Assembly (NCBI GenBank): GCA_947567595.1
Contig: CANOMQ010000023.1
Coordinates: 1-59,337 of the forward strand
Direction of reading: 5' to 3'
DNA from: an uncultured Lachnospiraceae bacterium
Lineage (GTDB): Bacteria; Bacillota; Clostridia; Lachnospirales; Lachnospiraceae
DNA length: 59,337 nucleotides
The translations under genes and the position numbers were made by a program. Each line of letters starts with the position of its first letter. The first letter of the stretch is position 1. Under the pieces are notes generated by a model that saw only the letters and a program-made list of their open reading frames with translations, was not told where the DNA came from and made no database searches. This document shows positions 33,409 through 41,122 of this stretch, piece by piece.

Positions 33409-33452
33409 AGCCTGTAAGGTCTGCGGGGGAGCGGAACTTGCAGGCTTCTTCT
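33409..33452 (+). terminator. terminator of the gntP-dehydratase operon
   Basis: AGCCTGTAAG (33409-33418) pairs with CTTGCAGGCT (33437-33446) with one G-U pair, followed by TTCTTCT. The palindromic repeat element begins at the next base. Confidence 0.7.
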
Positions 33453-33515
33453 ATGTACACGGACGCGGAAAGGAAATATGCAGCTAAAGCTGCCCGCGTC
33501 CGGCGCGGCGAGTAG
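33453..33515 (+). repeat. terminator-associated palindromic repeat, copy 1
   Basis: A CGGACGCGG / CCGCGTCCG stem (33460-33468 with 33494-33502) encloses a GCAGC-TAAA-GCTGC hairpin (33480-33484, 33489-33493). Read from its first base it is an open frame of 20 codons, MYTDAERKYAAKAARVRRGE, with TAG at 33513. It begins directly after a terminator T tract. Confidence 0.8.
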
Positions 33516-35429: not shown

Positions 35430-36611
35430 ATGAACAGACAAATATACCTAGACAATGCCGCAACCACAAAAATAAACGAGGAAGTCCTAAACGCAATGCT
35501 CCCCCACTTCACCCAAACCTACGCCAACCCCTCCGCAATCTACACCTTCGCAGGCGAGGCAAAAAAAGCGGTGGACACGGCAAGAACCCAAACCGCCGCC
35601 CTCATCAATGCCGCCCCGGAGGAACTCTATTTCACAAGCGGCGGCACCGAGTCCGACAACTGGGCAATCAAAGCCGTCGCCGAGGCATACCGCGAAAAAG
35701 GCAGGCACATCATCACGACCAAAATTGAGCACCACGCCGTCCTGCACACCTGCCAGTATTTGGAAAAACAAGGCTGCGAGGTCACATACCTAGACGTGGA
35801 CGAAACCGGAGCAATCTCCCTAGACGCGCTCCAATCCGCAATCCGCCCCGACACCGTCCTCATATCCGTCATGACAGCCAATAACGAAATCGGCACCATC
35901 GAACCGATTGCCCAAATCGGCGCCATCGCGCACGAGCACGGTGTGCTGTTCCACACCGACGCGGTGCAGGCATACGGGCACCTTGCGCTCGACGTGGAGG
36001 CAATGCACATCGACCTGCTGTCCGCAAGCGCGCACAAGCTCAACGGACCAAAAGGCGTGGGGTTTCTCTACGTCAGAAAAGGCATCAAGCTCCCTCCGCT
36101 TTTACACGGCGGCGCACAGGAGCGTAACCGACGCGCCGGAACGCTCAATGTGGCAGGCATTGCGGGATTTGGGAAAGCCGCAGAGCTTGCGGCGGCGCAT
36201 ATGGAGGAAAAGGCTGCGAGGGAAACAGCGCTCAGAGACCATCTGATAACGCGTATTTTATCAGAAATACCATACTGCCGTCTAAACGGACACCCGACAG
36301 ACCGCCTTTCGAACAACGCGAATTTCTGCTTCCGCTTTATCGAGGGCGAATCACTGCTGATTTTGCTCGACCAGCTTGGCATTTGCGCCTCGAGCGGTTC
36401 GGCGTGCACATCGGGTGCACTGGAACCGTCGCACGTACTGCTTGCAATCGGACTGCCGCACGAAATCGCGCACGGTTCGCTCAGACTAACCCTATCGGAC
36501 GAAACAACGCAGGAAGAACTCGACTTCGTCGTGGACGAGCTGAAAAAAATCGTAGACCGTTTGCGCGTTATGTCACCCTTATATGAGGATTTTATGAAGA
36601 ATGGAAGGTAG
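35430..36611 (+). CDS. nifS: cysteine desulfurase, NifS/IscS class
   Basis: A 393-residue PLP enzyme that takes sulfur from cysteine for Fe-S cluster assembly. The PLP lysine is in SASAHKLNGPKG (near 204), with the active-site loop cysteine in SSGSACTSG (near 325). The N-terminus YLDNAATTKI and the IEHHAVLHTC histidine are also typical. The length fits NifS/IscS. GGAGG lies 6 nt before ATG 35430. It overlaps the upstream region of iscU and is followed by patB-like and cysK genes, forming a sulfur cluster. A putative sulfur-responsive operator lies upstream. Confidence 0.93.
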   Translation: MNRQIYLDNAATTKINEEVLNAMLPHFTQTYANPSAIYTFAGEAKKAVDTARTQTAALINAAPEELYFTSGGTESDNWAIKAVAEAYREKGRHIITTKIEHHAVLHTCQYLEKQGCEVTYLDVDETGAISLDALQSAIRPDTVLISVMTANNEIGTIEPIAQIGAIAHEHGVLFHTDAVQAYGHLALDVEAMHIDLLSASAHKLNGPKGVGFLYVRKGIKLPPLLHGGAQERNRRAGTLNVAGIAGFGKAAELAAAHMEEKAARETALRDHLITRILSEIPYCRLNGHPTDRLSNNANFCFRFIEGESLLILLDQLGICASSGSACTSGALEPSHVLLAIGLPHEIAHGSLRLTLSDETTQEELDFVVDELKKIVDRLRVMSPLYEDFMKNGR

Positions 36612-36618
36612 AACAGCC

Positions 36619-37047
36619 ATGTATAGTGAAAAAGTAATGGACCATTTCAATAACCCAAGAAACGTCGGCGAGCTTGAAAACGCGAGCGGCATCGGAACTG
36701 TCGGAAACGCAAAATGCGGCGACATTATGCGGATTTATTTGGACATTGACGAACAGGGCGTGATACAGGACGCAAAATTTAAGACGTTTGGCTGCGGGGC
36801 GGCGGTGGCGACAAGCAGCATGGCGACGGAGCTTGTAAAAGGCAAAACCGTGCAGGACGCGCTCACCGTCACAAACAAGGCAGTCATGGAGGCATTGGAC
36901 GGACTGCCGCCAGTCAAGGTGCACTGCTCCCTTCTCGCGGAGGAGGCAATCCACGCCGCATTATGGGATTATGCAAAAAAGCACCACATCGAAATCGCTG
37001 GACTCAAACCGCCCGTGGAGGACATTGAACAGAGAAAAGACGCATAA
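36619..37047 (+). CDS. iscU: Fe-S cluster scaffold protein IscU/NifU-N
   Basis: A 142-residue scaffold for nascent Fe-S clusters. The three ligand cysteines are in NAKCGD (near 34), FGCGAA (near 59) and HCSLLA (near 102). The N-terminus MYSEKVMDHFNNPRNVG is typical. The start ATG 36619 is chosen over ATG 36601 because it matches the family start and lies 7 nt past the nifS stop, with GGAAGG about 10 nt upstream. It receives sulfur from the upstream desulfurase. Confidence 0.92.
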   Translation: MYSEKVMDHFNNPRNVGELENASGIGTVGNAKCGDIMRIYLDIDEQGVIQDAKFKTFGCGAAVATSSMATELVKGKTVQDALTVTNKAVMEALDGLPPVKVHCSLLAEEAIHAALWDYAKKHHIEIAGLKPPVEDIEQRKDA

Positions 37048-37129: not shown

Positions 37130-38584
37130 ATGGCGGAAAGAAACCTTGATTTTGACAGCGTGATTGACAGAAGGAACACGGACTGTCTGAAATATGATTT
37201 TGCAAAGCAGTACGGACTGCCAGAGGATGTACTGCCGTTCTGGGTGGCGGACATGGATTTTAAAGCCTCCTCTTATATTGAGGACGCATTGGTTGCACGG
37301 GCACGGCACGGTGTGTTCGGCTACAGTGACTGCGGTGCGCACTATTTTGAAGCCGTGCGCGGCTGGCTCAAGCGCCACCACAACTGGGAGCCGCAGGAGG
37401 CGTGGCTTGTCAAGACGCCCGGCATTGTCTTTGCGCTTGCAATGGCAGTCAAGGCGTACACGCAACAAGGCGATGGCGTGTTAATCCAGTCTCCGGTCTA
37501 TTATCCATTTTCGGAAGTGATTACGGACAATGGCAGAAGGGTTGTGAGCAGTAACCTCTATCTCGGCGAGGACAACCGCTACCACATGGACTTTGCGGAT
37601 TTTGAACAAAAAATCGTGGACGAGCAAATCAAACTATGCTTCTTATGTAACCCACACAATCCGGTCGGGCGCGTATGGACAAAAGAGGAGCTGACAACGT
37701 TTGGCGACATTTGCGTGAAACATAATGTCCTTGTTGTAAGCGACGAAATCCATCACGATTTTATATGGTCGGGCACGCACACGGTCTTTGCAGGTATCAA
37801 AAAGGAATATGAGGCAATCAGCATAACCTGCACTTCTCCCAGCAAGACCTTTAACATCGCGGGAATGCAGATTTCCAATATTTTTATCCCCGACAATGCA
37901 CTGCGGCGCAGATTTCGACATGAACTAGGCGCGGCAGGGACAAGCCAGTTAAGCGTAATGGGGCTGGTGTCGTGCGAGGCGGCATATCGGGACGGCGAGG
38001 AGTGGTATCAGGCAATGTGCGCCTACGTCAAGGAAAACCTTGCGTTTGCAAGACAGTACGTAGCGCAAAACCTTGCGGGCGTGACGATGATAGAGCCGGA
38101 GGGAACATACCTGATATGGCTTGATTTTCGCGGCTCACTCTATCACGCGTCATTCGTGCCGGGACCGGAGTTCAATGCGCTGGTAAAAAGCTGGTATTTG
38201 GACGGACTGGACTCCGAAGATTTTATTATGGGAGACGTCTATTTTGATGAGGACAGCCAGTCCTACGTCGTAGGCGCGTCCGGCGTGCTCAAGGGCGCAA
38301 ACGGTGCAGTGCGCGGCGTTGCGGCGGCAGATGTCTATTTGGACTCCATTTCGCACATCGTCAGCAATATCCAAATCGAGGACACAGGCGGCATTTTTTT
38401 GGTTGACACACGCACGGACACGATTATCGGACATAAGGACGCTGCGGTTGTCGGGAAAAAGCTGAGTGAGCAGACCGGTCAAGGAGCTAAGCCAAGTGGC
38501 AACCCGCATTGCGCAGGGCGATTTAAATCAGGAAATCCGCTACAAATCAAGGGACGAGCTGGGCGTGCTTGCGCACAATTTTAA
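37130..38584 (+). pseudogene. patB/malY-type C-S lyase fused to a chemoreceptor Cache domain
   Basis: Residues 1-334 are a MalY/PatB family PLP enzyme (cystathionine beta-lyase type): PFWVADMDF, CNPHNPVGRVWTKEEL, SDEIHHDFIW and the PLP lysine in SPSKTFNIAGMQ. After EGTYLIWLDFR the last 55-60 residues of the small domain are absent. The frame instead continues as the second half of a dCache sensor domain (FMGDVYFDE-like segment, GVAAADVYLDSISHIVS, GHKDAAVVGKKL). The tail beyond 38465 is out of frame with the receptor and meaningless. A deletion has joined two unrelated genes. Loss of the C-terminal substrate-binding part makes lyase activity unlikely. It starts 82 nt after iscU; AAAGCGGGGAA lies upstream. 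Confidence 0.75.
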
Positions 38585-39515
38585 CCAAGTAACGCTCAGG
38601 CTGCGTGATTACATTGCCTATATTGATGAAGTGTCCGAGACCTTGCTGGAGATTGCAAAAGGAAATTTGGCATTTCAGTTGAAAAATGAGTATACGGGCG
38701 AATTTGCAAAAATTAAGGAATCACTCAACGAGATTGCAACCGAACTCAACATGACCATTGGGCAGATGAACGCTGCTTCAAGAGATGTCGCAGGCGGTGC
38801 GGCGCAGATTTCCGACGGTGCGGTGAGTCTGTCGCAGGGCTCGACGGAGCAGGATGCGGAGATTGAGTCATTGGCGGGATATATCGAAAAATCGACACAG
38901 GGCGTACAGAACATCGCACTGGGTGCACAGAAGGCGAGCAGTCTTTCACAGGAGGTTCGGGAAGGGCTTTTGGACAGCAATGCAAAAATGCAGAACATGA
39001 CGCAGGTTATCCAAAAAATCAGCGAGCGTTCCAATGCCATTCATAAAATTGTAAAGACCATAGACGATATTGCGTTTCAGACCAATATCCTTGCGCTGAA
39101 CGCGGCAGTGGAGGCTGCGCGGGCAGGCGAGGAAGGAAAGGGCTTTGCGGTGGTCGCAGAGGAGGTGCGGACACTGGCAGGAAAATCCGCCGAGGCGGCA
39201 AAGGAGACTACGGAGTTGCTTGGCGAGACAATCAGCGCGATGGACGAGGGCGTTGGCGCTGCCGACGAAACCGCGCAATCCATGCTGTCCGCGGCAGGAC
39301 TTGCTGAGGAAATGAATACATTAATCGGCGGCATTGCCGACTACACCGCGCAGCAGGCTGTCATTTCTGAGGAAATCAGCCACGGGATTGACCAGATTGC
39401 GGTTGTGGTTCAGAAGAATGTGAGCACAGCGGAGTCCAGTGCGGCGGCAAGCGAGGAGCTGTCTGCGCAGGCTGCTTCGTTGAAGGATTTGGTAGCGAAA
39501 TTCCGGCTGCGGTAA
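38466..39515 (+). pseudogene. 3' part of a methyl-accepting chemotaxis protein gene
   Basis: The 349-codon frame begins inside a HAMP domain ([18 protein letters not shown]), continues through a second HAMP-like linker and contains the full signalling domain with the conserved tip [22 protein letters not shown] followed by [10 protein letters not shown]. The sensor half is in the overlapping frame of the preceding fusion. The membrane helix that normally joins Cache and HAMP is missing and the frames differ, so at least two deletions occurred. A GTG at 38466 could start a soluble fragment, but no good ribosome binding site is seen. Confidence 0.75.
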
Positions 39516-39558
39516 AAAGAGTCGCGATAAAAAGAATGAAATTTATTCAAAAAAACAC

Positions 39559-39587
39559 TTGACAAAAGGAATGACGGCGCGTATAAT
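39559..39587 (+). promoter_or_regulatory. consensus sigma-A promoter of cysK
   Basis: TTGACA (39559-39564), 17 nt, TATAAT (39582-39587): both hexamers and the spacing are perfect. The leader to the cysK start is about 400 nt. Confidence 0.9.
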
Positions 39588-39605
39588 CAAGGACATAAAG
39601 CAAAA

Positions 39606-39638
39606 CCTATAAAACATATCAGATAACTAGGGATTGAA
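39606..39638 (+). promoter_or_regulatory. sulfur-gene operator candidate, cysK copy
   Basis: CCTATAAAACATAT ... AACTAGGGATTGAA aligns without gaps to 35361-35393 upstream of nifS (26 of 33 identical). It lies 18 nt after the -10 box. It overlaps a weak hairpin (GGGA with TCCC). Confidence 0.6.
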
Positions 39639-39668
39639 AACTCCCCTTATCGGAAAGGAGCAAATGCT

Positions 39669-39767
39669 ATGAACGGAAATCATGTTAAAACAGCAAGAAC
39701 AAACGCAAACAAAATGATGTGCTGCTGTCAGACCGTATGGAATATGGTTTTCTTTTCATATGCATAG
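39669..39767 (+). CDS. cysteine-run leader peptide of cysK (32 residues)
   Basis: ATG 39669 to TAG 39767 encodes MNGNHVKTARTNANKMMCCC followed by QTVWNMVFFSYA. AAGGAG lies 8 nt upstream, an excellent ribosome binding site. Codons 18-20 are TGC-TGC-TGT (39720-39728), three consecutive Cys codons in front of a cysteine synthase gene. The intrinsic terminator begins 29 nt after the stop. This is the arrangement of amino-acid attenuation: low charged tRNA-Cys would stall ribosomes at the run. The sequence TCATATGCAT occurs at the end of the ORF (39756-39765) and again in the terminator stem-loop (39805-39814); because it contains self-complementary CATATG and ATGCAT, the two could pair in an alternative fold. 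Confidence 0.75.
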   Translation: MNGNHVKTARTNANKMMCCCQTVWNMVFFSYA

Positions 39768-39796
39768 CGCACACCGGATAGTCAGTATGTTTTTGC

Positions 39797-39833
39797 GGCG
39801 GTTGTCATATGCATTGGACAGCCGCCTTTTCTT
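39797..39833 (+). terminator. intrinsic terminator / attenuator upstream of cysK
   Basis: GGCGGTTGTC (39797-39806) pairs with GACAGCCGCC (39817-39826), with one G-U pair, followed by TTTTCTT. It separates the leader peptide from cysK. Confidence 0.8.
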
Positions 39834-39894
39834 ATGCACACGGACGCGGAAAGGAAATATGCAGCTAAAGCTGCCCGCGTCCGGCGCGCGAGTA
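39834..39894 (+). repeat. terminator-associated palindromic repeat, copy 2
   Basis: Nearly identical to copy 1 (33453-33515), differing by one substitution near the start and a one-base deletion near the end. It begins directly after the attenuator T tract. The deletion shifts the open frame, so the copy-1 peptide would not end at the same place. Confidence 0.8.
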
Positions 39895-39919
39895 GTGGAG
39901 AGGGACATTCCCCTACTCG
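39889..39919 (+). promoter_or_regulatory. hairpin between repeat copy 2 and cysK
   Basis: CGAGTAG (39889-39895) pairs with CTACTCG (39913-39919), with an inner GGGA-CAT-TCCC. There is no T run. It lies about 75 nt before the cysK start. Confidence 0.45.
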
Positions 39920-39993
39920 ATTGCACAGGGGCGCAGGAGGAAATAGGAAACAATAACAAATTATAAAAAATGATTAGCAGGGAGGAAACAAAC

Positions 39994-40929
39994 ATGAGCA
40001 AAGTAAAAGAAAGCGCACTGGAATTAATCGGAGGAACTCCGATTTTGAAGCTGAACGGATACGCAAAGAAGGCAGGTATTACAGAGGTAGCAATTCTCGC
40101 AAAGCTGGAATACCTAAACCCCGCAGGCTCCGTCAAAGACCGTGTAGCAAAGGCAATGATTGAGGACGCGGAACAAAAGGGCATTTTAAAAGAAGGCGCG
40201 ACAATCATCGAGCCGACAAGCGGCAACACAGGAATCGGACTTGCAGCAGTTGCGGCGGCAAAAGGATACCGCACGATTTTAACACTTCCCGAAACCATGA
40301 GTGTAGAACGCAGAAACCTCTTAAAGGCATACGGCGCCGAGCTTGTGTTGACGGAGGGTGCAAAGGGTATGAAGGGCGCGATTGCGAAAGCAGAAGAATT
40401 GAAGAATGAAATTGAGGGCGCGGTCATTTTGGGGCAGTTTGATAACCCCGCAAATCCTGCGGTGCACAAAGCGACAACAGGCCCGGAAATTTGGGAGCAG
40501 ACCGACGGAACAGTTGACATCTTCGTTGCAGGCGTCGGCACAGGCGGAACTGTAACAGGCGTTGGCGAATATTTAAAGGAAAAAAATCCGAACATTAAAA
40601 TCGTGGCAGTGGAACCGGCAACCAGCCCCGTTCTCTCAAAGGGAACTGCGGGCGCTCACAAAATTCAGGGTATCGGCGCGGGCTTTGTGCCAAAGGTATT
40701 GAATACGCAGGTGTATGACGAAATCATCACCATTGAAAACGAGGACGCGTTTGCAGAAGGAAAAGCGTTCGCAGTAAGCGAGGGCATTTTGGTCGGCATT
40801 TCTTCGGGCGCAGCGCTGAAGGCAGCGTCAATTCTTGCGCAAAGACCGGAGAACAAGGGCAAAACAATCGTAGCGTTACTGCCGGATTCGGGCGACCGTT
40901 ATTTGTCAACGCCGCTGTTTGCGGATTAA
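39994..40929 (+). CDS. cysK: cysteine synthase (O-acetylserine sulfhydrylase)
   Basis: A 311-residue PLP enzyme that makes cysteine from O-acetylserine and sulfide. The PLP lysine is in NPAGSVKDR (near 47), the phosphate loop is [12 protein letters not shown], the substrate loop is [11 protein letters not shown], and the C-terminal [11 protein letters not shown] and [13 protein letters not shown] are typical. The start ATG 39994 has GGAGG 8 nt upstream. It is probably controlled at two levels: an operator shared with nifS and a Cys-codon attenuator. It is followed by a DUF2292 gene and a terminator. Confidence 0.95.
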
Positions 40930-40963
40930 GAAAAAGCGCGGATACTAAGGCAGGTGAATGCAT

Positions 40964-41122
40964 ATGAAACAGGCGCAAGGCGGTTCTGATTATCAAAAGA
41001 CACATTTAGAGACCGTGGACGAAATGATACGCAATACCCGGTTTGGCAGCGTTACCATTATCGTACAGGACGGCAAGGTAGTACAGATTGAAAAACCGGA
41101 AAAATATCGCATAAAAGACTGA
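40964..41122 (+). CDS. DUF2292 (YezD-like) small protein
   Basis: A 52-residue protein. The C-terminal half (TRFGSVTIIVQDGKVVQIEK) is the DUF2292 core, a small beta unit. Such proteins are often encoded beside cysteine and sulfur assimilation genes, as here 34 nt after cysK. The start ATG 40964 is preceded by AGGTGA; ATG 40958 in the same frame overlaps that site. The function is unknown; it is probably co-transcribed with cysK. Confidence 0.75.
   Translation: MKQAQGGSDYQKTHLETVDEMIRNTRFGSVTIIVQDGKVVQIEKPEKYRIKD

Follow-up and report, generated by a model that had tools for sequence, protein, structure and literature searches.

A short ORF containing several cysteine codons in succession stands ahead of the cysteine synthase gene cysK in a 59,337-nucleotide stretch of Lachnospiraceae DNA (the window), and it most probably belongs to a ribosome-mediated transcription attenuator of the trp/his type that senses charged tRNA-Cys. 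On comparative sequence evidence we put the probability of this reading at about 0.86. Amino-acid attenuation ahead of cysK had been proposed in a first-pass annotation, and the proposal is supported by conserved runs of Cys codons, by covariation in an antiterminator and by the geometry of a translating ribosome relative to these elements. For cysteine, bacteria of this group had not been expected to rely on attenuation of this type.

The elements of the locus are collected in Table 1. The features that the first-pass annotation had described were recovered: a promoter called perfect, which agrees with the consensus throughout; a 32-codon ORF with a good ribosome-binding site and three Cys codons; an intrinsic terminator with an uninterrupted stem and a TTTTCTT tract; and a downstream gene that scores above the cysK cut-off. 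The locus thus has the short ORF, ribosome-binding site and Cys-codon run of an amino-acid attenuator, with an intrinsic terminator between the ORF and the structural gene. The terminator loop, at 10 nt, exceeds the 8-nt limit of a simple hairpin scan. No further promoter-like site was detected between the leader promoter and cysK in a scan of the window. Among the 26 short ORFs on both strands of the window (ATG-started, 10-60 codons, with a required ribosome-binding-site pattern), only the leader ORF contains three consecutive cysteines, a triplet that occurs seven times anywhere in the six frames. Since the leader ORF is unique in this respect and its Cys run is conserved in relatives, the run is more than chance would provide.

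Table 1. Features of the cysK leader locus in the window and the second tRNA-Cys genes at related loci
Feature	Position	Strand	Basis
Sigma-70 promoter, TTGACA (39559-39564), 17-nt spacer, TATAAT (39582-39587)	39559..39587	+	12/12 consensus positions
5'-UTR hairpin GATAA..GGGA/TCCCC..TTATC, 5' of the ribosome-binding site	39622..39651	+	fold
Ribosome-binding site AAAGGAG	39654..39660	+	8 nt ahead of ATG; conserved column block in alignment
Leader ORF, 32 codons, MNGNHVKTARTNANKMMCCCQTVWNMVFFSYA	39669..39767	+	translation and family alignment
Three Cys codons, putative Cys-tRNA sensor	39720..39728	+	sequence, conserved in relatives
Hairpin P1, 9 bp (39730-39738 with 39742-39750), immediately 3' of the Cys run	39730..39750	+	fold and covariation
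Antiterminator 5' strand (AUGCAUA, GCA, ACCG), overlapping stop codon 39765-39767	39760..39776	+	fold and covariation
Antiterminator 3' strand, 39799-39805 (within terminator 5' arm) and 39808-39814 (terminator loop)	39799..39814	+	fold
Intrinsic terminator, perfect 10-bp stem 39797-39806/39817-39826, then TTTTCTT 39827-39833	39797..39833	+	fold and covariation
cysK, cysteine synthase A; likely start 39994, ORF open from 39970	39994..40929	+	TIGR01139, 445 bits against a cut-off of 351
Small DUF2292 ORF 3' of cysK	40958..41122	+	PF10055
Second tRNA-Cys behind cysK	L111:3099-3169, L083:2935-3004, L131:3003-3072, L102:7180-7249, L104:4224-4293, L099:5958-6029		

We collected 32 leaders, including one from Roseburia inulinivorans DSM 16841, and the family so far comprises Lachnospiraceae and genomes of the window's family. 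When the leader was compared by blastn with 60 relatives, the matches listed were full-length in its own genome, G010, G031 and G006 (4/60), with one partial match in G003. The alignment of the four full-length leaders, at ~80% identity, preserves the Cys codons and the terminator together with the promoter, start and stop region. In G006 and G010 a spacer of ~600 nt containing a small ORF lies between the leader and cysK. Blast matches in at least 29 of the 60 genomes were rejected as a sign of leader conservation, as most cover only 39826-39945, a stretch between terminator and cysK that is a dispersed repeat of the genus with strong hairpins. This repeat has many copies per genome, with at least 63 first-look blastn candidates in the window's own genome and at least 111 in G007, and a second, partial copy in the window (33452-33515) is 97% identical. 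When the regions ahead of 30 cysK loci were scanned, the leader turned up only in G000, G006 and G010, G031 being outside that set and L030 beginning too near a contig end to judge. Two cysK loci, L028 and L047, carry ORFs with two adjacent Cys.

A profile of the leader peptide matched 16 of 397 family genomes; the real leaders were those of the window's genome and of three others, which belong to three other genera and each precede cysK. Within its own genus the leader is far from universal, having been found in 6 of 38 genomes, counted from profile matches with a fetched locus. In an order-wide sample of 392 genomes the profile gave 12 matches, real only in the window's genome and in G352, and among 62 genomes of the genus of G352, a set that includes G756 (the same sequence as R. 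inulinivorans), eight matched and five had leaders, one of them two. The search beyond the order was made solely by a pattern scan of 84,980 species genomes. It returned 16 loci, which partly overlap the leaders from the other searches, and all 16 have a promoter, a Cys-run ORF with a ribosome-binding site, a terminator and a downstream gene (cysK in 13, a MetN-type ATPase in two, a family-3 solute-binding protein in one). By label, 11 are Lachnospiraceae, three Roseburia, one Clostridium sp. (L099) and one Clostridiaceae (L105); L105 is part of G394, itself in the window's family. Two hosts are in culture, R. inulinivorans DSM 16841 and Lachnospiraceae bacterium 3-1.

A covariance model of P1 and the terminator (R1), built from 20 sequences, matched 15 of the 397 family genomes, 13 of them with a Cys leader. 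Twelve of the family matches were absent from the model, and ten of these (L144-L146, L148-L153, L155) have an ORF with at least two Cys codons, situated just 5' of or inside the matched stretch, with a ribosome-binding site recognized by script in six and by eye in four (weak in L153). Because R1 contains only the last two Cys codons, those further upstream provide independent support. The other two matches are a decayed copy lacking Cys codons (L147) and one that looks like chance (L154). In the 62-genome genus R1 matched eight genomes, yielding four leaders, three chance-like matches and an uncertain one (L160), which was left uncounted as its Cys-rich frame is without a clear start or a cysteine gene. 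Also uncounted, for want of leader context, were L058-L081, L085-L096, L113, L114, L116-L123, L135-L137, L154 and L161-L163. The decayed L147 stands outside the 32 leaders and L004 within them, and L107, a near copy of L102, was omitted from alignments and counts. A regular expression for the promoter, TTGAC(A/T)-17-TANNNT, finds it in the same position in 17/19 leaders; L098 and L115 are unmatched, L098 having TTGACT-17-TATAAT by eye.

The gene downstream is cysK in 21 of the 32 leaders (named from translation outside the window), metN/metQ-like in four and a family-3 binding protein gene in two (L138 is one such case), with single cases of a family-5 binding protein, a cystathionine gamma-lyase-like gene, a cysE-like gene, an ABC ATPase fragment and a cysK remnant. 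The ten new R1 leaders contribute five cysK, two metQ-/metN-like genes, the family-5 binding protein, the ATPase fragment and the remnant. In G003 and G002 the leaders precede MetN-, MetI- and MetQ-like genes instead of cysK, and the NCBIfam models for the three proteins match strongly in G003, all under their curated cut-offs. A divergent leader in G352 precedes a cystathionine gamma-lyase-like gene (552.6 bits, cut-off 594) and a cysK-like gene, and L133 is followed by a serine acetyltransferase-like gene (TIGR01172, 91 bits, cut-off 211) whose ORF ends early. The locus of the cysK remnant, L155 (G222:C19), has an intact-looking leader with four Cys in a row, followed by the short remnant and a DUF2292 ORF. 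These associations link the predicted attenuator to genes of cysteine supply. Since homologous leaders precede cysK, cysE-like, uptake and transsulfuration genes, the MetN/MetQ-like and solute-binding transporters of unknown substrate are marked as likely cysteine-supply genes as well.

The comparison that the first-pass annotation had suggested, for Cys codons conserved with synonymous drift, came out in its favor: the run varies in length and drifts between TGT and TGC but is kept in many genera of the family. At least three Cys are present in 30 of the 32 leaders, which have a median of 31.5 codons and contain 157 Cys among 1036 residues (107 TGT, 50 TGC). The longest run is three in twelve leaders, four in nine, five in four, two in four, one in two and six in one; G010 (L002) has Cys-Phe-Cys, with the middle Cys replaced by Phe, and L146 has only two Cys. 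L004 (G006) has lost its stop to a deletion 3' of the Cys run and its frame continues through the terminator, with cysK still downstream, and the decayed L147 (G399) has lost the 5' half of P1 along with its Cys codons and likewise still precedes cysK. Outside the Cys codons the peptide drifts and in some leaders is truncated or out of frame.

This pattern bears on the possibility that the nascent peptide itself, with its C-terminus QTV..NTVYFSYA, arrests the ribosome in the manner of TnaC or the Erm leaders, sensing cysteine or another ligand. The F and S residues are invariant across 14 aligned peptides, and the retention of YFSYA in L115, with synonymous third-position changes, and of VYFSYA in L148 is a mild argument for such arrest. 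However, L133, L134 and L138 have lost the C-terminal part or carry it out of frame and yet retain the RNA hairpins and Cys codons; loss of the C-terminus while the RNA stays alike argues for ribosomal reading of the Cys codons rather than arrest by the peptide. Moreover, the motif is missing in nine of the ten leaders first found by the RNA model (L148 being the exception), and the conserved codons of the C-terminus lie partly within P1 and the antiterminator strand, an overlap that can explain much of their conservation. Across the leader family we found no in-frame arrest peptide to be conserved, and we give this explanation a small chance of being correct.

The RNA elements expected of a tRNA-Cys-sensing attenuator were examined in an alignment of 19 leaders against 500 shuffles, a control in which relatedness is ignored. 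P1 and the terminator together have 93.2% of cells paired and 10 cells changed on both sides, values that none of the 500 shuffles reached; the covariation score was equaled in 0/500, the number of changed pairs in 12/500 and the number of pair types in 97/500, and sliding the helices by 1-3 columns left at most 54.7% paired. For the antiterminator, which was drawn from folds of the same 19 sequences on which it was tested, 79.6% of cells are paired and 33 changed on both sides (0/500 shuffles as high), the covariation score was matched by 1/500, changed pairs by 32/500 and pair types by 384/500, and slid versions reached at most 45.1%. An antiterminator mutually exclusive with the terminator is thus conserved by covariation, with three of five measures attained by no more than 1/500 shuffles. 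Its outer helix shows swaps from A-U to G-C (L104, L112), G-C to A-U (L098) and C-G to U-A (L112), and its inner helix is group-specific, pairing either UACCUG with CAGGUG or CCGGCUU with AAGCUGG. In L134, which had no part in defining the helix, CAUUAUGAUACC can pair with GGUACCAUAAUG at 11 of 12 positions, and L115 has no clear antiterminator.

In the window, the outer helix joins AUGCAUA (39760-39766) to UAUGCAU (39808-39814), and the inner pairs join GCA (39769-39771) to UGU (39803-39805) and ACCG (39773-39776) to CGGU (39799-39802). The first-pass annotation had pointed to TCATATGCAT, present both at the end of the leader ORF (39756-39765) and in the terminator (39805-39814), as a possible alternative pairing; this repeat corresponds to the outer helix of the conserved antiterminator and is the predicted core of the switch. 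The folding energy of the window's antiterminator is not significant alone (z -0.84, 19% of shuffles as good; 57% in a second run with the segment cut into the strand). In the 19 leaders the energy lies below the shuffled mean in every case (mean z -1.28), and antiterminator pairing lies above the shuffled mean in 29 of 32 (18/19 of the first set, 11/13 of the others) and under 5% in 7/32, totals that include L149 although a downstream hairpin was taken as its terminator. Energies give a weak signal for the family overall. The case for the antiterminator rests on covariation and geometry.

Leaders of other genera carry a shorter 5'-UTR hairpin, CCUAU/AUAGG, just 5' of the ribosome-binding site, with 92.6% of cells paired and four changed on both sides; in the window's clade a larger hairpin (Table 1) takes its place (alignment columns 87-103). 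The conservation and slight covariation of this hairpin would suit an undescribed riboswitch or a protein-binding leader, for instance one on which a CymR-like or thiol-sensing regulator acts, with the Cys codons incidental. No Rfam family was matched, however, and variation of Cys-run length within a kept frame is unexpected on this account, whose prospects we judge to be slim. That the ORF simply encodes a small Cys-rich metal- or redox-binding protein, followed by an ordinary terminator and without regulating cysK, is barely credible, for despite its own strong promoter and terminator the peptide diverges apart from Cys, an alternative pairing with the terminator is conserved, cysK follows 21/32 copies while most of the other downstream genes fit cysteine supply, and the window has no other promoter-like site ahead of cysK.

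The Rfam searches covered the whole window at the gathering threshold (no match), positions 39500-40000 at E up to 5 (no match), 20 cysK loci (only a tRNA) and, at E up to 0.1, 12 leader loci (nothing but tRNAs and two sub-cut-off matches, none at the leader). With no covariance-model match at the locus, a T-box (RF00230) or riboswitch at the leader was rejected. Elsewhere in the window's genome the Rfam model found six T-boxes at E up to 0.001, three of them over the cut-off, and these precede trpE, metG, pheS, thrS, tyrS and ileS, as read from the downstream frames. Since none of the six precedes a cysteine gene, the organism seems to employ T-boxes for amino acids other than cysteine, which it would sense through a translated leader. 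Farther 5' in the window, at 35430-37047, are ORFs that we take from their translations to be a cysteine desulfurase and IscU, followed by a PatB-type C-S lyase ahead of the leader. Within 37130-39515 the lyase ORF follows its family only as far as residue 335 and then runs into other sequence, and methyl-accepting chemotaxis proteins, minus their N-terminal part, are matched by an overlapping ORF (38466-39515). The region has the appearance of two genes joined by fusion or deletion, or of an assembly join.

At six leader loci an odd second tRNA-Cys lies behind cysK (Table 1), with anticodon GCA, acceptor GATGCTG, no encoded CCA and A or G as discriminator. A stretch similar to it lies behind the cysE-like gene at L133:2655-2720. 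No second tRNA-Cys was detected after cysK in the window, L022, L023, L106, L109, L110 or L112. Relatives of this tRNA (L196-L211) were found in 16 of the 397 family genomes, and in this search the window's genome had no such gene. Of 13 that could be placed, 11 have a cysK-like ORF as neighbor, one has a metK-like ORF and one (L211) has neither; a radical-SAM gene is often next, L207 differs from the others in its anticodon loop, and G394 has an ordinary tRNA-Cys elsewhere as well. We consider it unlikely that a dedicated tRNA-Cys, produced at the cysteine locus itself, serves to read or tune the attenuator.

The position of a ribosome on the leader was considered with its front edge taken 12 nt beyond the first base of the A-site codon. 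With this footprint, any Cys codon in the A site leaves the antiterminator strand free in 19/19 leaders, and the stop codon in the A site places at least 6 of 8 nt of that strand under the ribosome in 17/19, the exceptions being L106 (3/8 nt covered) and L004 (0/8). A stalled ribosome would free the antiterminator strand and a terminating one would mask it, as attenuation demands. The Cys codons, P1, the antiterminator, the terminator and their geometry are conserved in the predicted leaders, and from them we infer translation of the ORF, stalling and pausing of the polymerase, together with how the locus would respond in direction and size. In the attenuator so envisaged, a ribosome would begin the leader ORF close behind RNA polymerase. 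With ample Cys-tRNA it would pass the Cys codons and reach the stop at 39765, covering the antiterminator 5' strand, so that the terminator hairpin (39797-39826) would form and cysK be off. With Cys-tRNA scarce it would stall at the Cys codons with its front edge near 39732-39738, and the free strand would pair with the terminator 5' arm and loop, allowing read-through into cysK. P1 does not overlap the antiterminator and so would not itself block antitermination; a pausing role is what we infer for it, in which it probably keeps ribosome and polymerase in step, like the trp pause hairpin.

Leader-peptide attenuation is a classic mechanism. In the trp leader, hairpin 1:2 overlaps the antiterminator strand, whereas P1 of the Cys leader has no such overlap. 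A T-box binds the tRNA itself and needs no translation; the Cys leader locus, in contrast, has no T-box match. The poly-Cys ORFs of Actinobacteria are reportedly called leaderless in the title of Canestrari 2020. With the trp and his attenuators and the His leaders through which such attenuation occurs in Firmicutes, the Cys leader shares an end-product codon run, an antiterminator, an intrinsic terminator and biosynthetic genes (PMC2965389, PMC9413887), the amino acid here being Cys. With the poly-Cys leaders of Actinobacteria and mycobacteria it shares Cys runs in short ORFs 5' of cysteine operons (PMC1262725), but those of Mycobacterium are described there as having no conserved terminator hairpins, unlike the Lachnospiraceae leader with its intrinsic terminator, and the actinobacterial ORFs are ascribed to translation attenuation in PMC13236596. 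The uORFC-8-2 motif ahead of cysS in Rhodobacterales likewise has tandem Cys codons, two stems and a terminator; it is alpha-proteobacterial, has two Cys codons and precedes cysS only (PMC8632094), whereas the Lachnospiraceae leaders stand before genes of synthesis and uptake.

The first-pass annotation had named T-boxes or CymR as the usual control of cysteine genes in Firmicutes, and for the T-box this holds in Clostridium perfringens, where a Cys T-box controls cysK-cysE (PMC2940859); the gene, the signal (tRNA-Cys charging) and the expected outcome are the same as proposed here. The same source notes that a T-box is missing ahead of cysK in some clostridia, where control by other means is possible (PMC2940859), and the Cys leader is a candidate mechanism of this sort from a related family. 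A search of Rfam and of literature lying outside most subscription papers and bioRxiv preprints found no description of a Cys-codon leader in Lachnospiraceae. The kind of mechanism is itself known; what would be new is a Cys-codon attenuator with terminator and antiterminator across the cysteine-supply genes of Lachnospiraceae, which would offer a testable cysteine regulon in gut bacteria (Roseburia and relatives), run by translation-coupled transcription attenuation where T-box or CymR control would be assumed.
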